This document shows positions 37,763 to 40,340 of a stretch of 64,000 nucleotides of DNA, piece by piece (position 1 is the first letter of the stretch; each line of letters opens with the position of its first letter). A program made the position numbers and the translations under genes. The notes beneath the pieces were generated by a model, which had not been told where the DNA came from, did not search any database, and saw nothing but the letters and a program-made list of their open reading frames with translations. This DNA is from Candidatus Methanodesulfokora washburnensis (GTDB lineage Archaea; Korarchaeota; Korarchaeia; Korarchaeales; Korarchaeaceae): positions 1-64,000 of the forward strand of contig NZ_RCOS01000146.1 in assembly GCF_003947435.1 (NCBI RefSeq), written 5' to 3'.

Positions 37763-37835
37763 TAGCCCCGGCCGGATTCGAACCGGCGTCACCGGGTCCA
37801 GAGCCCGGTGTGCTTGACCGCTACACCACGGGGCT
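37763..37835 (-). tRNA. tRNA-Gln (CTG)
   Basis: AGCCCCG...CGGGGCTA; CCGGG CTCTGGA CCCGG. Confidence 0.92.
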
Positions 37836-38100: not shown

Positions 38101-38985
38101 ATGAGGGAGAAGCTGGGCTCATGTAGTTTCTGCATCAGGTGGTCCACAAGAGGATTTGCAATATCAATCCTGCTACTAATAGCTTCAATATACCTCAGGA
38201 TAACCCCTCTTATCGTGATATCTGCCGCTGTATTCACCTTCTTCTCCGTGCTTACCACTCTACACTTTATATTTTACGTCAGAAGAAGGGAGAAGTGCAT
38301 AAGAAGGGTCAGCGGGGAGTCAAGGAGGAGGTTTATATCAACTGCATTTAAGCTTGTTGTGGGCCTCGCTTTGTACAGCATGCTGGGCAAAATACCGGAG
38401 ATATCAGCTAAACCGGAGATAAAGCCTATGAGGTCGGTTGAGCTTGCTGGAAAGGATTTGGAGGAAGCTGTAGGTAAAGCTACTGCATCTAAAGATCTGA
38501 GAAACGTATTGGATGGATTTAAGGCAGATTTAAGAAGTGCCAAGGCAATCCGTCACTTTTTGTCCTTTAACGGAAGGGAGCTAACACTTCTAGCTGTCGT
38601 AGTGCCTATTAGTGATAACAGTATTGCAACTTATTATGAGTACTCTGAGCCAGTAAGCAATATAAGAACACGAGCATATCTAATTAGCATAGAAAATGAG
38701 AAAGCGGCTATTAAAAGAATAAGCATCAACAATCACCTCATAGAAACAGAAGGCTCATGCGTATATGAATGTAGCACAGATAGCGACTGTCCTTGGGGAG
38801 AGACTTGTATTTCAGAATGCTGCTCCTGGGATCAAGGATGTCTTGGGCGATGCTGTGGTCCATGCATGGTGGCCTGTGCGGGCAGTCTAGCCTCATGTCT
38901 AACCTGCGTGCTTCTTTGGTGTCCATTATGTGCAATAATATACTGCTGCACACAAGTAGAATATATTTGTACACCAACCCCGTAG
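38101..38985 (+). CDS. membrane-anchored/secreted precursor with Cys-rich C-terminus (archaeocin-like candidate)
   Basis: N-terminal TM segments; RRRFISTAFKLVVGLAL; 18 Cys in the last ~77 aa incl. CMVACAGSLASCLTCVLLWCPLCAIIYCC. Confidence 0.7.
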   Translation: MREKLGSCSFCIRWSTRGFAISILLLIASIYLRITPLIVISAAVFTFFSVLTTLHFIFYVRRREKCIRRVSGESRRRFISTAFKLVVGLALYSMLGKIPEISAKPEIKPMRSVELAGKDLEEAVGKATASKDLRNVLDGFKADLRSAKAIRHFLSFNGRELTLLAVVVPISDNSIATYYEYSEPVSNIRTRAYLISIENEKAAIKRISINNHLIETEGSCVYECSTDSDCPWGETCISECCSWDQGCLGRCCGPCMVACAGSLASCLTCVLLWCPLCAIIYCCTQVEYICTPTP

Positions 38986-38997
38986 AGATGATCGGAA

Positions 38998-39513
38998 ATG
39001 AGCAGAATGGAGGTTCTCTCTGATATTCTTATCCTTCTATCCATTCTCCTTTTTTCCATCCATTCCAAGCTTGGCCTAGATTTCTTCCCGGAGATACCTT
39101 TCCTCTACACCTTCTCACTTATAGTTATACTTATATATCACTTTTATAAAAAGAAAGAGGGGATATCGAGGACATTCTATCTAGTGAGTATTATAGCATT
39201 TATCTTATCATCTATATTAAATCTGTTTTTGTTTCTTATACTTGGAAACAGTATAATACTTAGTCTTCAATACTTGCTTAATTTGGTAATCAGCTCGATA
39301 ACATACCCCTATTTTGTTGTTCAAAAGCCAAAGATAATTGCATTAAAAGCTTCCCTTACAATATCAGCAATTCTCTTCCTTACTTACCTAGTGACATACG
39401 AAGAACATCCTTCCATGATCCTAATGTGTCTATCAATCTCTTTGCTGCCATGCTTACCCTTTCTCCACCTCCTCATCTCTTCTATTTGCATGAGTTTACA
39501 AAAAATAAAATAA
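38998..39513 (+). CDS. polytopic membrane protein (possible immunity/export partner)
   Basis: 171 aa, about six hydrophobic segments, same strand, 12 nt after the Cys-rich gene. Confidence 0.65.
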   Translation: MSRMEVLSDILILLSILLFSIHSKLGLDFFPEIPFLYTFSLIVILIYHFYKKKEGISRTFYLVSIIAFILSSILNLFLFLILGNSIILSLQYLLNLVISSITYPYFVVQKPKIIALKASLTISAILFLTYLVTYEEHPSMILMCLSISLLPCLPFLHLLISSICMSLQKIK

Positions 39514-39599: not shown

Positions 39600-40340
39600 T
39601 TAGATCCTGCTAATTGCCTTTTTTATGATCTCCACTTTTTCTTTAATATTCTCTTCTCTCTCTACATAAGTCCCTATCACGATAATATCAGCTCCAGCCT
39701 TAGCTCTTTCTGCAGCAAGCTCAGGAGATCTTATTCCTCCTCCCACTATTACTCCAAGCTTTGTGTTCTCTGATACTATTTTCACAGCTTCGACTGGAAC
39801 TGGTTCCTCTGCACCACTTCCGGCCTCTAAGTAGACCCATCTCATTCCGAGAAGCTCTGCTGCTGTTGAATAAGCTAGAGCTATCTCTGGCTTCTTTCTA
39901 GGTATTGGATTAACCCATCCAACCCATCCTGCCGCACTTTTATGACCTGGCTCGAATATCAAATAGGCAGTCGGTATTGCCTCTATTCCCAGTCTCTTTA
40001 CGGTGATTGCAGCTAAAGCCTGAGCCTGTATTATCCAGTAGGGATTTGATGAGTTTAAAAGGGACATGAAAAGTATTGCATCTGCCTTTCCTGATACTCC
40101 GTCCACATTTCCAGGAAAGAGAATTACAGGAAGGGAAGCAGATTTTTTTATCGAGCTTACCACTTCATCTAGCATTGCACCTGCTCCTATTGATCCTCCC
40201 ACTAGTATTATGTCGGCTCCTCCCTTTTCAGCTTCGTATGCAATTTTCCCAGCTTTATCAGGTTCAGTCGAGAATGGATCTATAAGAATAGCAAGTAAAG
40301 CTTCCTCAGAAGACCTTCTTCTTATCTCGTCCTCTATCAT
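39600..40340 (-). CDS. geranylgeranylglyceryl phosphate synthase
   Basis: LIDPFSTEPDKAGKIAYEAEKGGADIILVGGS; YLEAGSGAEEPVP; VGGGIRSPE. Confidence 0.95.
   Translation of the reverse strand: MIEDEIRRRSSEEALLAILIDPFSTEPDKAGKIAYEAEKGGADIILVGGSIGAGAMLDEVVSSIKKSASLPVILFPGNVDGVSGKADAILFMSLLNSSNPYWIIQAQALAAITVKRLGIEAIPTAYLIFEPGHKSAAGWVGWVNPIPRKKPEIALAYSTAAELLGMRWVYLEAGSGAEEPVPVEAVKIVSENTKLGVIVGGGIRSPELAAERAKAGADIIVIGTYVEREENIKEKVEIIKKAISRI

Follow-up and report, generated by a model that had tools for sequence, protein, structure and literature searches.

A candidate archaeocin-type toxin-immunity cassette with an exchangeable Cys-rich peptide in hyperthermophilic archaea

Two adjacent genes in the window (the whole 64,000 nt stretch analysed, contig C127 of the 2.94 Mb Candidatus Methanodesulfokora washburnensis genome, which is in 179 contigs) very probably form an archaeocin-type toxin-immunity cassette. 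A preliminary description of this DNA had proposed an archaeocin/immunity pair here, and that proposal is now well supported by the co-variation of the peptide with its partner, by allele swapping, by an orphan partner, by even Cys numbers and by the occurrence of Tat motifs together with TatC. We also lean, with less assurance, towards the view that the pair represents an unnamed archaeocin class spread across hyperthermophilic archaea, in which disulfide-ladder hairpin peptides, with a warhead unrelated to that of halocin C8, are carried as an exchangeable warhead-plus-immunity unit at a fixed site behind a constant prodomain. A literature search yielded no description of the family; the work of Makarova et al. 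2019, reportedly a survey of archaeal toxins, lay outside the coverage of that search and may mention the family as a candidate.

Layout, insertion site and distribution

The precursor gene and, 12 nt after it on the same (+) strand, the gene for a membrane protein are open reading frames at the positions given for them in the preliminary description, and the six TM segments assigned there to the second protein agree with the six hydrophobic segments that we count. The N-terminal TM region, the twin-Arg-like segment and the hydrophobic helix of the Cys region that had been read in the 294 aa protein are likewise all present. Its tail had been put at ~77 residues with 18 Cys; the Cys count stands and the length is corrected to 75 residues (220-294). 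The features of the locus are as follows.

37763..37835, - strand: tRNA-Gln (ctg), bordering the insertion site on the left; adjoins the GGGPS gene in most relatives
38101..38985, + strand: prepropeptide gene, 294 aa, with TM hairpin, Tat-like signal, prodomain and Cys-rich peptide; open reading frame, also backed by homologues elsewhere in the phylum and in the Thermococcaceae
38116..38289, + strand: hydrophobic hairpin of two helices at the N-terminus (residues 6-63), containing C8xxC11; AF2 helices 6-32 and 36-63, pLDDT about 54-71
38317..38385, + strand: Tat-like signal ESRRRFISTAFKLVVGLAL, residues 73-95 region; from the sequence, with equivalent motifs in L005 and L006
38431..38748, + strand: prodomain, residues 111-216, predicted E-H-H-E-E-E-E-E-E; AF2 pLDDT about 87-97 over most of it, and alignment A3
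38758..38982, + strand: Cys-rich peptide at the C-terminus (residues 220-294, with 18 Cys), a candidate for the mature toxin; even Cys counts and Cys co-loss pairs
38833..38943, + strand: hydrophobic helical hairpin within the Cys-rich peptide, residues 245-281; AF2 helices 245-252, 254-261 and 263-281, pLDDT about 78-89
38998..39513, + strand: polytopic membrane protein of 171 aa with six hydrophobic segments, the candidate for immunity; open reading frame and co-variation test
39600..40340, - strand: geranylgeranylglyceryl-phosphate synthase-like (GGGPS; PcrB family) gene, right border; Pfam PF01884 2.1e-59, order kept in relatives

In relatives the tRNA-Gln and GGGPS genes are often 50-130 nt apart; in the window the gap is ~1.76 kb and is occupied by the cassette. 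Searches of both window proteins against Pfam, NCBIfam and PADLOC gave zero matches above cut-off, and no dedicated protease or transporter was identified beside the window cassette.

A protein search that covered 60 relatives and the window's own genome detected homologues within the window's genus and family, and also in one distant archaeal family, which we infer from gene content to be the Thermococcaceae. By profile search, 4 of the 29 genomes from the window's phylum carry members, as do 41 of 94 Thermococcaceae genomes (several of these 41 have only fragments or broken copies), and across 394 archaeal genomes searched the convincing members were restricted to that phylum and the Thermococcaceae. 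A divergent second subfamily (L069, L075, L076) is joined to the family by profile comparison (2.5e-12), and genome G003 holds three loci of the family. In every intact member examined, a signal or TM segment is followed by the prodomain and then by the Cys-rich C-terminus, and directly downstream of the precursor gene lies a gene for a small membrane protein, which usually overlaps it or starts within about 20 nt of it. Plasmids and viral contigs yielded zero homologues, so that a plasmid or viral origin is unsupported. Comparison with solved protein folds and viral protein folds gave no match at E <= 0.001, and nothing convincing was found among PDB sequences. The weak matches L007 and L009-L018 (minus L017) were discarded as chance or unrelated membrane proteins; L008 and L017 were kept, of which L017 gave no further lead.

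The precursor and its Cys-rich peptide

The S-R-R-R-F-I segment of the window precursor (residues 74-79) precedes a hydrophobic segment, as do the corresponding motifs of L005 (KRREFL) and L006 (SRRRFI) in alignment A3. TatC was found in all four genomes of the phylum that have full or partial members (G000, G003, G012 and G016) and was absent from the Thermococcaceae (0/15 genomes tested), the members of which begin with an ordinary short hydrophobic signal. Tat motifs occur only where TatC exists, and the window precursor is a predicted Tat substrate. We also note two observations on the N-terminal hairpin: a congener protein (L003:1408-1869, G002:C71) has a TM hairpin 55% identical to that of the window protein, a different and Cys-poor C-terminus and a different membrane protein downstream, and the viral family phrog_14571 has a weak match to the hairpin only (window 38101-38304, residues 6-68, E 6e-4).

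The presence of 18 Cys within 75 residues has a binomial chance of about 1e-20, on an assumed background of 0.9% Cys. AF2 with the family alignment predicts for this region a strand (234-244), two helices (245-261 and 263-281) and a second strand (283-292). The Cys number is even (14, 16, 18 or 20) in 39 of 39 Cys domains, the second subfamily included, compared with an even count in 14-27 of the 39 for comparison residues, these domains being related and hence not 39 independent draws; throughout the family the number varies by twos between groups. Cys columns are co-lost in nested pairs, 251-277 and 252-274 with phi 1.00, 247-282 with phi 0.94, and 259-266 and 240-283 with phi 0.70. Because these nested pairs match the AF2 hairpin, they suggest a disulfide ladder and disfavour metal binding, and the sequence comparison and model together point to a domain that is disulfide-bonded rather than metal-binding. 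What the preliminary description had named as evidence against its own reading, a metal-binding tail with no conserved neighbour, is not what the homologues have; their Cys are lost in pairs and every intact precursor examined is followed by a partner. It had also suggested looking for a conserved cleavage site before the Cys region, and there the homologues share no motif beyond the start of the Cys domain itself. In the N-terminal Cys loop, TIGR04201 (Cys-rich repeat) and Dumpy DPY scored below cut-off, and these matches were set aside.

Co-variation of the peptide with its partner

The partners are largely unrelated to one another; most are predicted to have 2-4 TM segments, as against six in the window partner, and Pfam gave zero matches to them above cut-off. 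Across 30 non-redundant thermococcal loci, the median identity falls from 63% in the prodomain to 40% in the Cys domain and 14% in the partner. Similarity of the prodomain tracks genus (0/5000 permutations); that of the Cys domain (1424/5000) and that of the partner (501/5000) do not. When the contribution of the prodomain is removed, Cys-domain similarity and partner similarity are correlated with a partial Pearson coefficient of 0.67, a value reached in 0/10000 permutations (maximum 0.28). This signal comes from a minority of related pairs; the majority of partner pairs sit at background and hold no rank information, which keeps the rank version of the correlation at only 0.09. The nearest neighbour by Cys domain is also the nearest by partner in 23/30 loci, as against 9/30 when prodomain and partner are compared in the same way.

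At one orthologous site, both flanks are common to 14 loci by blastn, and in 12 of these the median identities are 82% upstream, 72% in the prodomain, 56% in the Cys domain, 54% in the partner and 80% downstream, with a baseline of 53% for shuffled partner sequences. The pair L031 and L039, which belong to one genus, have flanks that are 93% and 92% identical, Cys domains that are 54% identical and partners that are 51% identical. With flanks conserved and both the Cys domain and the partner at or near random identity, the latter two are therefore exchanged as a unit. Their physical adjacency adds to their co-variation, but linkage alone is insufficient, since the equally adjacent prodomain and Cys domain are only loosely coupled. 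The co-variation points to a candidate immunity function in the separate downstream gene.

An orphan partner, as is expected of immunity genes in toxin systems, lies directly after the GGGPS gene in G013 (L118:2288-2911); it is homologous to the partners in G016 (69% identity) and G012, and a search for a precursor in genome G013 found none. The relic L074 retains a broken precursor N-terminus and a downstream gene that resembles the partners of L056, L058 and L066. For the window's own partner, the search of relatives brought up no convincing homologue, so its putative role is carried over from the family.

As a toxin-immunity cassette, the pair would most likely work as follows. The precursor would be exported via Tat in the window organism and presumably via Sec in the Thermococcaceae, which are without TatC, and the prodomain would keep the C-terminal peptide harmless and/or assist its folding. 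The C-terminal 75 residues would form a helical hairpin stapled by the nested disulfide ladder, plus a small N-terminal Cys loop, and the oxidised peptide would be freed by proteolytic cleavage around residues 217-220. The peptide would then insert into the membrane of related archaea that have no matching partner, and the 171 aa downstream membrane protein would protect the producer. We infer these properties of the pair (export, cleavage, toxicity, membrane target and immunity), that of membrane action because the hairpin is hydrophobic and all partners are membrane proteins.

Known systems and alternative readings

Polymorphic toxins have a constant N-terminal part, an exchangeable C-terminal warhead, an immunity gene just downstream and orphan immunity genes. 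The window family resembles them in its constant N-terminus, in a swappable C-terminus that varies with the adjacent gene (predicted immunity), and in its orphan partner. It differs from them in its small peptide warhead and simple signal, with no large delivery protein seen, and Pfam, NCBIfam and PADLOC found no known delivery or toxin domain above cut-off in the cassette. The VARTIG system, a known conflict system of Thermococcales with a hypervariable Ig module, C-terminal shuffling and distinct membrane proteins downstream (PMC8416519), is similar in being a hypervariable locus in that order with a shuffled C-terminus and such downstream proteins; unlike the Cys-rich peptides of the window family, VARTIG are large Ig-domain surface proteins, and no sequence relation was seen.

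The preliminary description had called the pair halocin C8-like, and this holds for the layout and for the probable mode of action but not for family membership. Like the window precursor, halocin C8 is made as a preproprotein (ProC8, 283 aa) that goes out by the Tat pathway (in the window, predicted export) and has a middle domain and a C-terminal peptide of ~76 residues, and its immunity peptide HalI is reported from the same precursor (PMC11509114). The window family differs in its C-terminal domain, which is unrelated by profile and has 14-20 rather than 10-12 Cys, and in its candidate immunity function, which resides in a separate, co-swapped membrane gene.

That the family nevertheless is a true member of the halocin C8 group whose C-terminal domain has diverged seems to us unlikely; this reading concerns ancestry and is compatible with the toxin-immunity mechanism. 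The common layout speaks for it, as do Thermococcus C8 precursors with an E-H-H-E6 prodomain and small membrane partners: in one thermococcal precursor type the prodomain is also predicted as E-H-H-E-E-E-E-E-E (AF2 pLDDT about 80), so that the same fold may be present and common ancestry of the two prodomains is plausible on the models. The profile similarity of these prodomains is weak, with E 0.001 and a probability of 21% in one comparison and E 0.02 in a second, where the best decoy scored higher. The TIGR04449 model, a check that the preliminary description had proposed, gave no match in the members tested (A1 members, L036, L048, L057, L066, L075 and L077) and zero matches in the window's genome G000, yet it detects L085, L088 and L090 at 1e-9 to 1e-10 and recovers members from 7 of the 94 Thermococcaceae genomes (one of them below cut-off). 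In hhalign the Cys domain scored 9.7 against the halocin C8 domain, equal to the decoy mean of 9.7 (decoy maximum 13.5), and a direct match between the two was rejected on this decoy-level score.

The thermococcal halocin C8-domain precursors occupy different loci, in which the layout is similar and the membrane partners are likewise small. Those in Thermococcus (L088, L089, L083, L090-L094) are of two prodomain types, about 262 aa and about 316-332 aa, and in the loci read they have small membrane genes downstream; homology of the window prodomain to the longer ones (A5) was unsupported by profile comparison. At the Thermococcus locus L084:513-2472, a truncated second prodomain fused to a different Cys-rich tail, together with another small membrane protein, comes after a halocin C8-domain precursor and its partner, an arrangement that resembles a tandem spare warhead cassette.

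A secreted peptide and a membrane protein that co-vary, with alleles that swap at one site, could also serve as a polymorphic peptide-receptor or kin-recognition system, in which the membrane protein would be the cognate receptor of a Cys-rich peptide used as a signal or as a tag on the surface. We regard this as quite improbable, given that the smallest partners have 71 aa and about two TM segments, with neither a signalling domain nor a Pfam match above cut-off, and that a hydrophobic stapled hairpin would be unusual as a soluble signal. The long hydrophobic N-terminus of the window protein and the putative nature of the cleavage would also suit a Cys-rich domain that is anchored at the cell surface or binds metal, encoded beside an assembly or export factor; this has very little to recommend it in view of the universally even Cys numbers (39/39) and the pairwise Cys co-loss in hairpin register, and an assembly factor is not expected to be swapped with the C-terminus or to persist alone.

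To our knowledge, peptide warfare in hyperthermophiles is nearly undescribed. If the toxin-immunity reading is true, roughly four in ten sampled Thermococcaceae genomes hold part or all of such a cassette, and since this family includes genetically tractable species, antagonism and immunity would be directly testable in it. The peptides would be very stable, heavily disulfide-bonded and probably membrane-active scaffolds, and the common site would serve as a model of how archaea swap toxin alleles.
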